Positions 2,188 to 49,961 of a stretch of 64,000 nt of DNA are shown here, piece after piece. The stretch is from Spiroplasma endosymbiont of Polydrusus cervinus (GTDB lineage: Bacteria > Bacillota_I > Bacilli_A > Mycoplasmatales > Mycoplasmataceae). Made by a program: the position numbers and the translations under genes. The notes below the pieces were generated by a model that was not told where the DNA came from, did no database searches, and was given only the letters and a program-made list of their open reading frames with translations. The stretch covers positions 496,001 through 560,000 of the forward strand of contig NZ_OZ026469.1 in assembly GCF_964019755.1 (NCBI RefSeq), in the 5' to 3' direction. How positions within the stretch are numbered: the first letter of the stretch is position 1; each line of letters opens with the position of its first letter.

Positions 2188-2217
2188 AACCACAATTGTG
2201 GTTTTTATTTTTTTTTT
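2188..2217 (+). terminator. Rho-independent terminator
   Basis: The perfect stem AACCACAATTGTGGTT is followed by a T-rich run to 2217. It closes the truncated + strand gene and separates it from dnaE. Confidence 0.7.
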
Positions 2218-2246
2218 CGTTAAAATGTAAGGAGAGCGAGGTAACA

Positions 2247-5200
2247 ATGATGACAACTCCCTATTTAAATGTTAGAACAAGTTATAGTTTATTATCATCT
2301 TTAATTACATTTGATAAATATTTTAATCATGCTATGACAACAGGTTTAACATCGTTAGCAATTTGTGACAGTAATATGTTTGGGATTTATGAGTTTCATC
2401 AACTTTGTCAAAAAAATAAAATTAAACCAATCGTTGGCTTAAATGTTACTATTTTATTTAATGATGTTACTTATAATATGAATTTATTCGCGCGTAATCA
2501 ACAGGGTTATTTTAATTTAGTTGAAATTTCATCCATCATGATGATTAATGCCGAACATAAAAAACTTTTAACATTAGATGAAATTAAACAATTTTTAACA
2601 GCTGATGTTAAGATTATTATTAATTATACAACGGATAATTATCAACGAGCCCTGTACCAAACGCTACAGAGTATTTTAAAACAAGAGACTGATTTATATG
2701 TAGGGATTAATAATGATAATTTATCGTTATTAACTTCTTTTCAAACATTACTAGCAGCGGAACAAATTATTTGAAATAATAAAGTGCAATATTTTACTAG
2801 TGAAGATTTTACTGCCTACAAAGTTGTTGATACGATTAAAACACAGACTTTATTTAAAGAGAGTAAATTGCAAGATTTCTATGGTTGAGTAGCGCCGTCA
2901 AACCTTTATCACCAATATTTTGATAATATTAATTCTTTTATTGCAACAATTGATTTTTTTCCATTGCATAAAGGTACTATTTTTGATAATTTATTACATT
3001 ATCCAATCCCGGATAATCAATCAGCGCAACAATTTTTACGAGAAATCTGTGAGACAGCCTTGGCACAAAAAAAGATTACAAAATTAAAAGCAACATATCT
3101 TGAACGATTAAATTATGAATTAACAGTTATTAATAAGATGGGTTTTAATGATTATTTTTTAATTGTCTGAGATTATGTTCGGTATGCTAAAGAACAAAAC
3201 ATCTTTGTTGGTCCGGGACGAGGAAGTGCTGCGGGTAGTTTAGTTAGTTATTTATTAGATATTACAACAATTGATCCAATTACTTATAATTTACTTTTTG
3301 AGCGTTTTTTAAATCCTGAACGAAAAAGTTTACCTGATATTGATATTGATTTTGAAGACGATAAGCGGGAAATGGTGGTTGAATATTTATTTGAAAAATA
3401 TGGTAGTGAGCATGTTGCTCATATTATAACTTTTCAAACAATTGGGGTGAAAATGGCCATTCGGGATATTTGTCGTATTTTTGATATTGCAATTGAAGAA
3501 GCGGACAAAATGAGTAAAGCAGTTCCATTAGAATTTAATTATCATTATGAGCAAGGAATTAGTGCTAATCCTCTTTTTGAAATTTATCAAAAAAAATACC
3601 CCCAAGTCTTTTTGCATTTAAAAAAAATTATTGGTTTACCACGGCAAACAGGAACCCATGCAGCAGGGGTTGTTTTAACCCAACAACGATTACAAACAAT
3701 TATTCCGATTAAAGAGGGATATAATGGCATTTATCAAACCCAATATTCAATGAATTACTTAGAAGAATTGGGAATTTTAAAAATGGATTTATTAGGATTA
3801 CGGAATTTAACTATTTTACATGATGTTGTTAATAATATTTATCAGGAAACAAAAGTAAAATTAGATGTTAATACCTTGCCGTTAAATGATCAAAAAACGT
3901 ATCAATTGTTAGCGCAAGGCGATACAAAAGGGATTTTTCAGTTAGAATCACCTGGTATGACAAAGGTTTTAATTGATATGGTTCCGGACCAATTAGAAGA
4001 TATTGTTGCAACTTCATCATTGTATCGTCCGGGACCGCAGGATAATATTCCTTTGTTTATTAAACGAAAAAAAAAATTAGCGAAAGTTACTTATATTGAT
4101 GAACGTTTAGCAGAAATTTTAGCCCCAACATATGGGATTATTGTTTATCAAGAACAAGTTATGTTAATTGCCCAGAAAGTTGCTAATTTTTCCCTAACGA
4201 AAGCGGATGTTTTTCGTCGTGCGATGGGGAAAAAAGATGCCACAATTATGAGCCAAATAAAAACAGAATTTATTGAAGAGGCAGTGAAAAATCATTATGT
4301 TGAGAAAACCGCTCAAGAAATATGAGAATTAATTTATAAATTTGCGGCGTATGGTTTTAACCGTAGTCATGCGGTTGCTTATTCATTATTGGGTTATCAA
4401 ATGGCGTATTTAAAAGCAAACTATCCTTCGCAATTTTTGGCTAGTTTGTTAACACATGTTATTGGTGATGAAAATAAGACTCATGATTATATTAATTTAG
4501 CAAAGAAAAATCATTTAACAATTGTCCCACCAAATATTAATGCCCCATATCGCCAATATTATACGGTTGATAATCAAATTTGTGTGCCATTATTAATTAT
4601 TAAACAAATTGGTTTTGCCTTTTTTAATAAAATTGCACAAGAATATCAGACGAATGGTTTATTTACCGATTTATATGATTTGTTTATTCGCTTGTATAAA
4701 AAGGGGTTAAACCGTAAAACTTATGAAGCATTATGTTTTTCGGGGGCGTTAGACTTTTTTAAATTAAATCGAATTACAGTATTTAATAATTATCAACGGA
4801 TTCTTACTTATATTGAACTAATTAAAACCCAAGAAGAAAATGAAAATTTAGTTGTTGACTTTTCATTAGCGGAAAAACCAGAATTAGTAATTGAACCAGA
4901 TGATGAAGTTGTTTGTTTGGAAAAAGAGTATGAATTTTTAGGATTTTATTTATCGAACCATCCTTTGAAATATCTTCGTGAAAAAGAGGGATACCAAGAT
5001 AAAATAACCTTAATTAGTAATTTACGATTAACATTGGGTTTAACAAATGTTTTAGTTTTAGTTAAACGGGTAAAAACAATTACGGATAAAAATAATAATA
5101 AAATGGCTTTCTTAGATTGTTACGATGAAAGTGGCGAAATTAGTATTACTGCTTTTGCCGGAATATATAAGGATTATGCAAATTTATTAAAAGTTAATAA

Positions 5201-5294
5201 TGTTTTATTATTAAATATTCGTTTAGGGACATATAATAATAAGATTAATGGTATTATTAATCGCATTAAATTTATTAGTGGGAAGCAAGAGTAA
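2247..5294 (+). CDS. dnaE: DNA polymerase III alpha subunit, DnaE type
   Basis: 1015 aa, read with TGA as Trp at several places; start ATG 2247 behind AAGGAGAG. It is a replicative family C polymerase, a second enzyme beside PolC in mollicutes. An N-terminal PHP domain is followed by the polymerase core with GPGRGSAAGS (about residue 321), the catalytic pair PDIDIDF (Asp364/Asp366) and the third Asp at about 514 (KMDLLGLRNL). THAAGVVLT and LYRPGP are also present, with an OB-fold region near the C-terminus. The PHP metal ligands are not conserved: the usual HxxVH-type start reads YLNVRTSYS, so no PHP nuclease activity is expected. A truncated membrane gene with its terminator precedes it and mobile DNA follows it. 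Length is normal for short DnaE forms. Confidence 0.95.
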
Positions 5295-5317: not shown

Positions 5318-5477
5318 TGTAAATTGTAAATACCAAATCATAAAAAGTTAACTATTAATTTAGTTAACTTTTTAAGTTAATTTTTAAGTTAATTATAGGG
5401 GGTTGAAATTATGCAAATAAAGCAATATTTAATTTTGCGGTCGTTAGTAAAAAAGTATGATAAAGATATTGTTTTAA
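5318..5477 (+). mobile_element. L-end mini-element with interrupted 36-codon ORF
   Basis: Starts TGTAAATTGTAAATACCAAA and continues through an AGTTAAC-rich palindrome and a GG-rich SD to ATG 5411 (MQIKQYLILRSLVKKYDKDIV). The ORF is cut by IS3 copy A. The uninterrupted version is at 31429-31648, and the same interruption recurs at 54018-54166. Confidence 0.7.
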
Positions 5478-5546
5478 TAGACTGCACCCAAAAAAGTAAG
5501 TAAAGAAAAAAAGTCTTTGCTAAACTTAAAGGAGGTGCATTTTTAT

Positions 5547-5810
5547 ATGGCAAGAAAAGGACAAAAATTTAATAAATATACAGCATATTTTCGAAAAATG
5601 ATAGTACAAGAGATTAAAAATAATAGTATAAGTTTTATTGCAAAAAAATATCAAATTAATAAAAAAACTGTTGTTTCATGGTATGAAAATTTTAAGAAAG
5701 GAATTTTAAACACCAATAAAGGTCCAAAAGAATCATTTGAAAAAAGAGATTTAAACTATTACAAAGTTAGGTATGAATTACTAAAAAAGCTTCATGACTT
5801 TTACAATTAA
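5547..5810 (+). CDS. IS3-family OrfA, HTH protein (copy A)
   Basis: 87 aa. The start ATG 5547 has AAAGGAGGTG nine bases upstream; the longer upstream frame has no SD. The helix-turn-helix ISFIAKKYQINKKTVVSWYE binds the element ends. The slippery heptamer A AAA AAG at 5783-5789 lies in the correct phase near the end of the gene, as in IS150. A fraction of ribosomes should shift to -1 and make OrfAB, the active transposase. OrfA alone probably represses. Confidence 0.88.
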   Translation: MARKGQKFNKYTAYFRKMIVQEIKNNSISFIAKKYQINKKTVVSWYENFKKGILNTNKGPKESFEKRDLNYYKVRYELLKKLHDFYN

Positions 5811-6670
5811 ATAAAAGAAAAATTGTATTTTTTATCAAAGAAAACATTAATAAATATCCACTAAATTTATTACTTGATATAACAGATTTAAAGCGTAGTT
5901 ATTGAGATAAATATAAAAATTATTCAAGTAATGGTAAGGATAGCGAATCATTAAAAAATATTGTAAAAGTCTATGAAGAAAATTTAAAACAATTTGGTTA
6001 TCGTCGAATTACCAAATATTTAAAAGAAGATTATGGCATTATTTATAATGCTAAGAAAGTATTGCGAATTATGAAAGAAAATAATATTCAAGCTGAATAT
6101 GTAAAGCGTATGCGTAGAAAAATATTAATAAAACAAAATAGAAATAAAAATATAATTAAATATCCTGATTTAGTAAATCGTAATTTTAATTATATTAAAG
6201 AAAGATTTTCAATTTTATTTACTGATGTAACTTATTTAATTTGAAATGGTAAAAAACATTATCAATCAACAATACTTGATGGATGATATACTAAAGAAAT
6301 TATTGATGTAAAATGATCAAAATTTAATAATAACAAACTTGTACTTGATAATTTAAATGATGCAATTAATAAAATTAAAAAAATAAAAAAAGATTTAAAT
6401 AAAATAATAATTCATTCAGATCACGGATATCAATATACATCTAAAGATTACAATAGTAAATGTTTAGATAACAAAATTATAATTTCAATGGGTAAAAATT
6501 ATCATTGTGCAGACAACATTATTATTGAAAGTTTTCATTCATTACTTAAAAAAGGAAGAATCCATAATAAAAATTATAAATCTCATAATGAATATATTAA
6601 TGATGTTAAAAAATGAAATAAATGATATTCAAACCAAAAAGAAAAATATATAATAAATGAAAGTTTGTAA
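5789..6670 (+). CDS. IS3-family OrfB, DDE transposase (copy A)
   Basis: The frame is entered by -1 slippage at 5783-5789 and runs to TAA 6668-6670, about 293 codons with several TGA as Trp. The DDE residues are recognisable in LFTDVTYLIW, HSDHGYQYTS and IIIESFHSLLKKG. It catalyses cut-and-copy of the IS. Relative to copies B and C it has one extra in-frame codon (DGWYTK against DGYTK). No internal nonsense codon is visible. An independent start is unlikely because no SD precedes a suitable ATG. Confidence 0.85.
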
Positions 6671-6708
6671 ACCTTTTTATTAATACTTACTAAACAGGGT
6701 GCAGTCTA

Positions 6709-6955
6709 GACTTAATTCTTTTAATTTTCTTTGTGGTCTAATTTCATTATAAAATTTAATATATTGTGGAATCATTATATATATATATATATATATATAT
6801 TCTTTGTTTCTAAAAATACGTTTTAATGTTTCAAAAAATTCAGTTTTAAAAGTTCCAAATCAAGATTCAGTATGACCATTATCTGGTGAAGATCCTCTTC
6901 GTGACATTGAAATTATTATTCCCAATTTTTTACACAAATTTGTAAATATAAAATT
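6709..6955 (-). pseudogene. 3' fragment of a second IS3-type transposase
   Basis: The reverse strand encodes SRRGSSPDNGHTESWFGTFK and later YIKFYNEIRPQRKLKE, the C-terminal E-region of IS3-group OrfB. This is a different lineage from copies A-C. An (AT)n tract at about 6774-6800 has expanded inside it. The 5' part is missing; it abuts IS3 copy A on one side and a palindromic repeat on the other. Confidence 0.75.
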
Positions 6956-7144
6956 TGTATACTGTAAAACTAAATCATAAAAAGTTAATAAGATTATAAC
7001 AAATTAAAAATAAAAAACAATAATTACAAAAAATATTAAATTAAAAACATTGTTTTTAATTTAATATTTTTTGTAATTATTGTTTTTTATTTTTAATTTG
7101 TTATAATCTTATTAACTTTTTATGATTTAGTTTTACAGTATACA
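6956..7144. repeat. 189-bp palindromic MITE-like element (R/R arms)
   Basis: A near-perfect inverted repeat. Each arm of about 92 bp starts TGTATACTGTAAAACTAAAT and contains the outward promoter-like TATAAT. It is the longest palindromic member of the family here and has no coding capacity. Confidence 0.85.
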
Positions 7145-7150
7145 AAAAAA

Positions 7151-7580
7151 TTATTTACCACATTTACTATCACCTTCATTGATAGTAAACCATTCATCAT
7201 CTATCTTTTGAATAACAAAACTACAATTTTCACACTTACTTAAATCTTCGCCTAAACTTATTAATTTATGCATAATATCTCTACTTTCTAATTTTTTATT
7301 ATATTTTATTTTATTTAAAATAACAATAACAATTATTGAAGAGGAAAATAATAAAGAAAACAAACTTGAAATATATATTTGTATTTGATTTGTTAAGACA
7401 CCATAAATAATTCAAATAATAGAATTTAAAAAAATAAAAAACAAGGTTATTTTTGATAGAGATTTTGTATTTTTTTGTATTAATACTTTAATTGTTTGCG
7501 GTAATAACGTTATTAAACTAGTAACAAAACCAATTCAAGCTATAATATCAATTAATATTTCTTTTATATTTTAAACTTCA
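7151..7580 (-). pseudogene. SemiSWEET / PQ-loop membrane protein, start damaged
   Basis: About 140 codons. Three membrane helices with WIGFVTSLITLLPQTIKVL (PQ-loop), KSLSKITLFFIFLNSIIW and a third hydrophobic stretch match the SemiSWEET half-transporter fold, whose members move sugars as dimers. A C-terminal cytosolic tail has paired Cys (CENC, KCGK). The ATG at 7580, just after the parA stop, runs out of frame unless one A is restored in the A-run at about 7570, so it is called broken; a non-ATG start cannot be excluded. It is the last gene of a plasmid-like par operon. Substrate unknown. Confidence 0.6.
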
Positions 7581-7581
7581 T

Positions 7582-8358
7582 TTATTTTATTTCTTTAATA
7601 AGTTCTTCGTATGCTTGTTTTTGTCGTCAATAATATTTACTGTCTCAATTACTTGCTAATTCGTTTTCGTTTGTTAAAAAAGTTTCAGAACTTTTTAATA
7701 TTATTTTAAAACAATAATTTAAAAATCCCTTTTCATCTAATCACTCATTAATTAATATTAAATTTTTATCACTTTTTATAGTATTCAATATTATTTTATA
7801 TTCTGGTATTTTTCTTTTTTCTCTTTTGCAAATATATTTTAAAGTATTAATTAAATCTAAAATTCCCTTAAATGCTCCCAAGCCTTCATTAATAGGAATT
7901 ATAATCAAGTCAGAAATAATTAATCAATTTAAACTTAATTCATCTACTGTTGGTGGATAATCAATTAAAACATAATCATAACTATCAAGTGTTTCTTTAT
8001 TAGTTAAATAAATATTTTCAGCAACAAAAAATTTATCATTATTCTCATAAAGTTTTTTTAATAAAAAATTTACTTTTTTTACTTTTTCTCTACCAACAAT
8101 ATAATCAATTTCTTTATATTTTGTATTTTGAATAACTTTTTTTAAAGAATTATTCTTGTTAAAAACAAAACAATCTGATATTGTTTTTTCTAAATTAACT
8201 TCTGTACCTTTTAATTCAAAAGTTATTGTTGCCTGTGGGTTTAAATCAATTATTAAAAATTTTTTATTTTCTAAAGCAAATTTATATGCGACATTTTTAC
8301 AGAGCGTTTTTTTCCCAACAACCCCAACCTTTTTATTATAAAAACTAATCATTTTCAT
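7582..8358 (-). CDS. parA: ParA-family partition ATPase
   Basis: 258 aa with TGA as Trp at 7924-7926. The deviant Walker A VGVVGKKTL lies near residue 15, LIIDLNPQATIT follows as the A' motif, and YDYVLIDYPP is Walker B. ParA/Soj-type ATPases segregate plasmids with a small DNA-binding partner. Its start overlaps the stop of the upstream CopG-like gene, suggesting translational coupling, and palindromes upstream could be operators or parS. The layout is like Spiroplasma pSci-type plasmids, so this is probably an integrated plasmid piece. The first Gly of the usual KGGVGKT is replaced. Confidence 0.8.
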
Positions 8359-8583
8359 TGTTGTTGTTTTCCCTTCTATATCTTTTTCTTAAAATTCTAT
8401 TCATAAGAGTTGTGTATTTTAACTCTTTTTTGCTGCTTCTTTTTTAAATTCTTTTACTAATTCTGAATCACATGTCATAGTTGACATTTTTTGATTTTAA
8501 TATTTATCATTTTCTTTTTTAAATGCTATTGTATCTTCAATTTTTTCTAATTTTTTTCTGTTTTTTTCACTTGTAATTGGCAT
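8345..8583 (-). pseudogene. CopG-like ribbon-helix-helix regulator, broken
   Basis: Starts at ATG 8583 (MPITSEKNRKKLEKIEDTI). Pieces KMSTMTCDSELVKEFKKEAA and LKYTTLMNRILRKRY match the strand and helices of plasmid RHH proteins. A TAA at 8497-8499 and a frame change near 8435 split it. The restored frame ends at TAG 8345-8347 inside the parA start. It would have been the ParB/CopG partner and autoregulator of the par operon. Confidence 0.65.
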
Positions 8584-8607
8584 TAAAAAAATTTCCTTTC
8601 TAATTTA

Positions 8608-8687
8608 GATTATTAATAATCTAAATAATCTAAGTTAATAATACCTTTATTTTATTAACTTTTCAATAAAATAATCTAAAGATTATT
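8608..8687. promoter_or_regulatory. AATAATCT/AGATTATT operator-like repeats
   Basis: Upstream of the copG-parA operon: palindrome AGATTATTAATAATCT (8608-8623), a further AATAATCT just after it, and AATAATCTAAAGATTATT (8670-8687). Spaced copies of one 8-bp half-site fit RHH operators or a parS site. The rest of the gap (8690-8990) shows no gene. Confidence 0.55.
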
Positions 8688-8993
8688 TTATATATAATAT
8701 TACATAATTAATTTTTGTTATGATTAAACTCATTAAACTAACTTTCAATGCGTTACAGACGATAATTTTATAAAAAACAATAAAAACCCTTATTTTATAA
8801 GGAATAATTAACTATGTTCGTTCATTTAAATATAAAAATGAAATTTTAGGTGAGCAGTTGATTTTCTGAAATTTTGTGATAAAATAATTTACAAGTTAAA
8901 AAGTTTTGAGGTTCTTTCAAATAAATTTGGATAACCTTTATAAAATTCTTCGCTTAACGATTATAATTTTTTCCAAGTATTTTAAAAAGGCTG

Positions 8994-9132
8994 TGTATAC
9001 TGTAAAAATAAATCATAAAAAGTTAATAAAATTAAACACAACAAAAAATAAATTTTACTAATCTTAACAAACATTTATTTTTTGTTGTGTTTAATTTTAT
9101 TAACTTTTTATGATTTATTTTTACAGTATACA
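8994..9132. repeat. 139-bp palindromic element (R/R arms)
   Basis: Near-perfect inverted repeat starting TGTATACTGTAAAAATAAAT and ending in its complement. Its inner sequence (TTAAACACAACAAAAAATAA) matches the inner part of the IS30 terminal region at about 1005-1060. The host bases CTG and CAG at its edges extend the palindrome. It lies just downstream of rpmF. Confidence 0.8.
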
Positions 9133-9148
9133 CAGCAGCTATTATTCC

Positions 9149-9325
9149 CTAATCAACTTTAATAACTTCTTTATCCTTATAATATCCACATTCACGACAA
9201 ACTCTATGTGATTTAATTGATGCTCCACAATTTTTACATGATATCAAAGTTGCTCCAACTAATTTAAAATGTGTTCGGCGTTTTCTTTTTGCCTGTTTGG
9301 ATGTTTTTCGAAATGGTACCGCCAT
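9149..9325 (-). CDS. rpmF: 50S ribosomal protein L32
   Basis: 58 aa, start ATG 9325 behind [27 protein letters not shown] is the L32 signature, followed by the four-Cys zinc ribbon (SCKNCG and VCRECG). Complete, of usual length. It follows the broken yceD as in the common yceD-rpmF pair. Confidence 0.95.
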
Positions 9326-35525: not shown

Positions 35526-35685
35526 TTTTTTTCAAAAAAAGGAAGCAACAAAACAATTAGTTAATGAATGTGAATTGCAAAAAGCTGAACAATCAAGGAC
35601 ACATTTATTAGACGAAGAAATTTTAATTGATGAATTATTTTTGTATACTGTAAAACTAAATCATAAAAAGTTAATAAAATTATAA
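35512..35685 (+). CDS. Small protein truncated by palindromic repeat
   Basis: ATG 35512 overlaps the thiI end and has AAGGA upstream. It runs [20 protein letters not shown] to DELF, then the repeat's own codons [13 protein letters not shown] and TAA at 35683-35685. The first 43 residues are host-encoded and highly charged, resembling a short linker protein of unknown family. The original gene probably continued past the insertion point. Confidence 0.5.
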   Translation: MKKTSFFQKKEATKQLVNECELQKAEQSRTHLLDEEILIDELFLYTVKLNHKKLIKL

Positions 35686-35763
35686 CAAATTAAAAATATT
35701 GCTTTTTATTTTTAATTTGTTATAATTTTATTAACTTTTTATGATTTAGTTTTACAGTATACA
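35642..35763. repeat. 122-bp palindromic element (R/R arms) before relA
   Basis: TGTATACTGTAAAACTAAAT arms around a short centre. The flanks AATTATTTTT and AAAAATAATT extend the palindrome by 10 bp on each side. The right arm carries TTGCTT (35699-35704), 16 bp, TATAAT (35721-35726) towards relA. Confidence 0.85.
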
Positions 35764-49883: not shown

Positions 49884-49961
49884 TGTATACTGTAAAACTA
49901 AATCATAAAAAGTTAACTAAATTAATAGTTAACTTTTTATGATTTAGTTTTACAGTATACA
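49884..49961. repeat. 78-bp palindromic element (R/R tips)
   Basis: TGTATACTGTAAAACTAAAT arms around AGTTAACTAAATTAATAGTT. It overlaps the end of the lipoprotein gene and provides its stop. A separate hairpin AAAGATTATTAAATAATCTT lies at 49856-49876. Confidence 0.85.

Follow-up and report, generated by a model that had tools for sequence, protein, structure and literature searches.

The stretch of DNA analysed here (the window, 64,000 nucleotides, positions 496001–560000) belongs to a single chromosomal contig of 1,120,781 bases from the Spiroplasma endosymbiont of Polydrusus cervinus, in whose genome TGA encodes tryptophan (code 4). A cassette on the minus strand lies between two genes that we take, from reading their translations and not from a family search, to be dnaE (2196–5294) and rpmF (9149–9325). 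It is composed, in this order, of a CopG-like gene (8345–8583), parA (7582–8358) and a gene with a PQ-loop domain (7154–7570), which confirms the single operon described in the initial annotation. A pSci-type operon is therefore found inside the chromosome, with dnaE and rpmF on its flanks, and not on an autonomous replicon.

The gap between dnaE and rpmF also contains mobile DNA. A plectrovirus-like fragment (5318–5479, plus strand), present in many copies in this genome, adjoins the 3' end of dnaE, and its portion 5362–5479 is 82–84% identical to the Spiroplasma phages SkV1CR23x, C74 and R8A2B. The plectrovirus query piece gave 74 scored matches in the genome, most of those listed being to the 5318–5479 fragment. 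It is followed by an IS3-family element (5479–6711, plus strand) whose transposase (5517–6670) has broken frames (rve Pfam, 3.7e-12; NCBIfam IS3, 7.9e-36, yet under the family cut-off), and by an IS3-type transposase fragment in the opposite orientation (6711–6937, minus strand; rve_3, 7.3e-7). A palindrome is placed on either flank of the cassette, the first at 6956–7144 (arms spanning 6942–7158) and the second at 8994–9132 (arms spanning 8990–9136).

The CopG-like gene and parA

The CopG-like gene, which probably encodes a ribbon-helix-helix protein, begins with an ATG at 8583 and is then interrupted by in-frame stops and a frameshift; that the gene is damaged had been noticed in the initial annotation. 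Its final 14 bases overlap parA and, once the two frames are joined, its product matches the homolog of the Spiroplasma kunkelii plasmid pSKU76 at 73%. The family lies below every Pfam cut-off, with weak sub-cut-off matches to BrnA (8/18) and CopG antitoxin (5/18), and a search of the PDB with the alignment gave no match.

The parA frame is open over 258 codons under code 4. The protein is short (258 aa), without an N-terminal DNA-binding domain, its P-loop begins near residue 9 (AAA_31, 1.9e-30), and it is 85.7% identical to the ParA of pSKU76. The earlier statement that parA remains open is correct for the frame but not for the function, since both the Walker A and the A' motifs are wrecked. 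The deviant Walker A motif (KGGxGKT), intact in the 21 plasmid ParAs compared (that of pBLH13-3 was excluded because its N-terminus is missing), is broken in the window by a G to V and a T to K change plus one extra codon within the motif. In the A' motif a D is replaced by N, and near the C-terminal end an I is replaced by N. The window protein departs at 4 of the 63 columns invariant among the 21 plasmid ParAs, a count that is not unusual on its own given that leave-one-out departures of the other 21 range from 0 to 5; it is the location of the changes in the motif that is unusual. The dN/dS ratio with respect to the pSKU76 gene (0.18, 257 codons) suggests that parA was under constraint until recently and fits a recent loss after long constraint. 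An intact copy of parA could persist on a plasmid outside the one-contig assembly.

Repeats and a conserved element upstream of copG

The initial annotation had described repeated half-sites before the operon. The sequences AATAATCT/AGATTATT occur 12 times in the 64 kb, five of them at 8607, 8615, 8624, 8670 and 8680 (8607–8687), while the next-densest 100-bp stretch of the window holds two. None of 2000 dinucleotide shuffles of 8595–8700 reached five. Diverged repeats are placed at the corresponding position in pSKU76. A ParA match was present in 40 Spiroplasma plasmid records, and for a wider comparison 22 operons were taken from 21 of them (pSPh535 was used twice). Counting the window, 20 of 23 operons carry significant repeats before copG (at most 2 of 200 shuffles), the exceptions being pSPh535a, psAtri1 and pBLH13-3. 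These repeats are candidate centromeres of pSci-type operons, and the five half-sites of the window a candidate centromere or operator. On an intact plasmid the CopG-like protein would bind them and ParA would move the resulting complex using ATP, a type Ib-like arrangement suggested by the anatomy of the operon.

The repeats are closely shared only by pairs of operons with similar CopG and ParA proteins, and a Mantel test relating the similarity of the repeats to CopG identity gave r = 0.144 (p = 0.086), or 0.05 (p = 0.31) when allowing for ParA; co-variation beyond close pairs is thus not shown. According to Saillard et al. 2008 (PMC2386487), the partitioning of coexisting pSci plasmids must be specific, and hairpins and direct repeats lie upstream of soj in pSciA. 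The presence of upstream repeats in 20 of 23 operons offers a testable reason for the coexistence of many such plasmids in one cell.

A second feature, at 8741–8806 on the minus strand, consists of a terminator-like hairpin with a sequence of the type CTGTGxxGCATTGAA behind it. This element is conserved upstream of copG in 20 of the 23 operons, being missing in pSKU76, psAtri1 and psAtri7, and might be an origin, a nick site or a regulator. An Rfam search on two plasmid loci returned only sub-threshold miRNA families.

The half-sites of the window are intact and clustered, and decoy centromeres require no protein encoded at the locus. It could accordingly be proposed that the cassette still acts in the chromosome, either in partition or as a repeat decoy that confers incompatibility with pSKU76-type plasmids. 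This seems highly improbable, considering that CopG and ParA are broken and that the one-contig assembly contains no plasmid of pSKU76 type.

The third gene and its SemiSWEET domain

The PQ-loop frame (7154–7570, minus strand) begins 11 bases past the parA stop and stays open for 139 codons, continuing into a C-terminal tail of about 45 residues (7154–7288) that is common to plasmid genes. It has no in-frame ATG, GTG or TTG start, in agreement with the start damage noted previously; the ATG directly 3' of the parA stop belongs to another frame. Together with the lesions in the CopG-like gene and in the ATP-binding motif of the otherwise open parA, this leaves all three genes of the cassette broken, and the segment consequently most likely does nothing now.

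The domain matches PF04193 with 25.5 bits (cut-off 22), and scores under the cut-off with MtN3_slv (20.2 against 23.7) and with the NCBIfam SemiSWEET_2 family (1.1e-9). A profile of its homologs finds the PDB entries 4qnc (1.6e-20), 5uhs, 4x5m and 4rng, and the predicted model (pLDDT 82, pTM 0.51) superimposes on 4qnc in Foldseek with a TM-score of 0.86 by target length. A three-helix PQ-loop fold is therefore predicted for the third gene. The window gene has the PQ motif and, as predicted (TM by target length up to 0.86), the fold in common with the SemiSWEET transporters 4qnc, 4x5m and 4rng, but differs from them in its fusion to a plasmid tail, in the lack of an in-frame start and in the replacement of the TM3 asparagine by serine. 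This asparagine, which is conserved in the SemiSWEET family and has a role there, is found in each of the 19 aligned homologs. No publication on SemiSWEET in Spiroplasma was found in a literature search.

PQ-loop or tail matches were obtained in 36 of 148 genomes of the order, mostly as stand-alone PQ-loop genes. Both parts together were seen only in the own genome among these 148, and a further scan of genome contigs gave no match to the combination. Related genomes often carry a SemiSWEET gene on its own, and the third gene might accordingly have belonged to the chromosome ancestrally, with plasmid DNA arriving next to it later. We regard this as quite improbable, since the PQ-loop frame is fused to the plasmid tail and lies 11 bases after the parA stop. 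In the tree, moreover, the window domain groups with SemiSWEETs from other genera of the Spiroplasma family (93/92), apart from the copy of its own genus in G005, although the long branch makes this placement unsure.

A tail shared by variable genes after parA

The tail is rich in cysteine and is defined by the motif HxL...CxxCSFxIQKxDxxWFTxNxGxxxCGK. It is present in 25 Spiroplasma plasmid records, and neither Pfam nor a PDB search gave a match. The window tail is 85% identical to one of the same subtype in the congener G008, where the tail frame lies directly behind a parA remnant; in pSKU76 a truncated frame of that subtype lies behind a lipoprotein gene. Some tails are proteins by themselves, and others form the C-terminal end of proteins that are not related to one another. 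The slot after parA holds a 50-aa tail-only protein in pSci2, pBLH13-5, pScpC5-4 and pSNTEN2, and a 172-aa soluble protein with the tail at its end in pBJS-O and pSci3. A small Cys-rich protein is found there in pSPh535a and pSPh387, with a tail frame behind it, and in pSPh245, pSci1, psm1, psHy5 and pSKU226 without one (the pSKU226 stretch stops 170 bases past parA, at the end of the record). The slot is filled by a lipoprotein in pSKU76, pSNTEN1, pSNTEN3 and pSNTEN4, and by other genes in the remaining operons. Plasmids with the same repeat type differ in their slot gene (pSci1 and pScpC5-4; psm1 and pSNTEN1), so the occupant of the slot does not follow the partition type.

A SemiSWEET occupies the slot only in the window, out of 23 operons. 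The proposal that a SemiSWEET travels as a regular part of pSci partition modules was rejected, as none of the 22 plasmid operons has one after parA. The third gene would rather be a swappable passenger. One speculative extension, to which we give little credence, is that cargo of different kinds, in the window a membrane protein, is tethered by the Cys-rich tail to the partition machinery or to some other partner that all share, and that plasmid-specific upstream repeats set which plasmids can coexist.

Plasmid origin of the segment

The DNA between 7140 and 8760 matches 43 of 72,556 plasmid records, all of them from Spiroplasma, in support of the integrated Spiroplasma plasmid segment proposed initially. 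The best match is S. kunkelii pSKU76 (NZ_CP012425), with 88.1% identity over window positions 7554–8688. The adjacent DNA at 8790–8993 matches 18 plasmid records, again all from Spiroplasma, so that plasmid-like DNA extends from the stop of the tail at 7151 to 8989. The outermost part of it, unannotated plasmid DNA at 8836–8989 (plus strand; 18 Spiroplasma plasmid records), is inverted relative to copG in comparison with pSci2 and pScpC5-4.

The copG-parA order is shared by the annotated plasmid operons inspected, save pSKU205, whose stretch begins at parA, and the window has the traits of pSci-type operons: a copG-like gene overlapping parA, a third gene, upstream repeats and the conserved element. 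pSKU76 shares the CopG-like (73%) and ParA (86%) genes with their 14-base overlap (3871–4110 and 4097–4870), related repeats and a tail frame that belongs to the same subtype but is truncated; it differs from the window in having a lipoprotein gene in place of the SemiSWEET after parA, and in its intact genes and ParA motif. The soj/parA regions of S. citri pSci1–3 and pBJS-O have the same copG-parA order and the conserved upstream element, and pSci2, pSci3 and pBJS-O also have a tail-bearing slot gene, but their partition types are different (ParA 47–50%), their repeats are unrelated and they contain no PQ-loop. In the parts of the literature available (PMC2386487, PMC1318496, PMC8140453), soj/parA is described on all pSci plasmids, with poorly conserved surroundings between plasmids, and plasmid and viral DNA as either free or integrated. 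In the same portions of these three papers, the copG-like gene is not presented as a partner in partition, nor are its repeats as centromeres, and the shared tail is not described. The locus is a relic of a plasmid whose novelty lies only in its details.

The 532-aa hypothetical protein of pSKU76 was not found in the own genome, in a search made without a positive control, and integration of a whole plasmid is therefore unsupported. No target duplication could be established around the segment.

The palindromes belong to an IS30-family expansion

The palindrome reported on each side of the cassette is present, with 108-nt arms that are 95% complementary in the first and 67-nt arms that are 99% complementary in the second. 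Both derive from the terminus of the IS30-family element at 881–2095 (about 1.2 kb), whose transposase fragment matches NF033563 (4.9e-15; 55.9 bits, under the 80-bit curated cut-off). One half of palindrome 1 is 98.9% identical to this terminus. Palindrome 2 is a folded-back and internally deleted version of it, one half matching at positions 1–59 (91.7%) and 122–159 (100%).

Half-sites of the terminus number 108 and 104 in the own genome (0 for the reversed control) and 0–12 in each of 13 congeners, only four of which have any. In the window they form palindromes or half-sites at 6956–7144, 8994–9132, 35642–35763 and 49884–49961. An inverted partner lies within 420 bases in 14 of the 37 forward half-sites examined (30 loci elsewhere and 7 in the window). 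Complementarity continues into the flanks of the palindromes for a mean of 3.4 bases and up to 13, whereas flanks paired across different copies give 0.6 (permutation p = 0.0002), an excess indicating that some half-sites lie within inverted repeats or that the end was copied along with its flank. An element known to insert at inverted repeats is IS1630 of Mycoplasma fermentans. Compared with IS30-family elements, whose terminus forms the arms, the copies here are mostly solo or folded-back ends. No publication on these palindromes was present among the literature matches listed.

The bracketing palindromes are part of a genome-wide IS30 expansion, in which the terminus of an IS30 element multiplied within one lineage and gave rise to many palindromes that are almost perfect. 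Their role as cassette-specific boundaries was ruled out by the genome-wide half-sites, 14 of 37 being palindromic. Recombination between palindromes, invoked earlier to bring the segment in, is possible and unproven, and the palindromes themselves are not part of the module.

Palindromes and cassette could nevertheless make up one composite mobile unit, in which two IS30-derived palindromes carried the plasmid block into the dnaE-rpmF gap. They do lie right beside the plasmid-derived DNA, at 7144/7151 on one flank and at 8989/8994 on the other, and the terminus is multicopy (212 half-sites). Against such a unit, the own genome shows no second copy of the block in a DNA search, the gap also contains the plectrovirus fragment and IS3 elements, and half-sites are spread throughout the genome, with 14 of the 37 examined palindromic. 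It appears unlikely on balance.

The chromosomal junction and other plasmid captures

Both dnaE and rpmF are present in the 13 congeners but adjacent in none, and the distance between their best matches is never under about 114 kb. The cassette is hence not at the same locus in all Spiroplasma, as a chromosomal origin would have implied. The gene directly 3' of dnaE in relatives, recognized as what is presumably cutC, follows it in 8 of the 9 relative loci shown (G008 differs); the neighbour of rpmF is also different. No cutC was found in the own genome in a search without a positive control. The former rpmF neighbour is found at genome positions 661372–662711, and behind it come another copy of the plectrovirus fragment, pieces of IS30 and the IS3 element in inverted orientation with 99% identity. 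No one simple inversion accounts for the orientations, and more than one event probably took place. Judged by the gene orders compared, the site is a lineage-specific rearrangement junction.

The cassette is very probably a decayed pSci-type plasmid partition segment, captured in the chromosome at a point of mobile-element rearrangement, and a relic without a working system. A pSKU76-type pSci plasmid would have entered the chromosome within this lineage, most likely through recombination or replicon fusion at multicopy elements (IS30 family, IS3 family, plectrovirus pieces), and the same elements would also have rejoined dnaE to rpmF. What remained would be the partition operon with some adjoining plasmid DNA, bracketed by folded-back IS30 ends. 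The locus is mainly a cautionary case: a chromosomal parA and the transporter gene next to it are here the remains of a plasmid, left where the chromosome was rearranged.

A DNA search of the own genome with the cassette gave, besides short pieces, only a par sequence of another type, at 299976. This sequence belongs to a second decayed par relic (299503–300800) of another plasmid type, closest to pSNTEN4 (79%), with a tail gene and a Cys-rich slot gene. A 59-base parA scrap is also present at 168.1 kb of the genome, and these two remnants show that plasmid capture took place more than once here. Tail sequences are found on megabase contigs of G008 (one) and G009 (four), so such captures are not uncommon among Spiroplasma.
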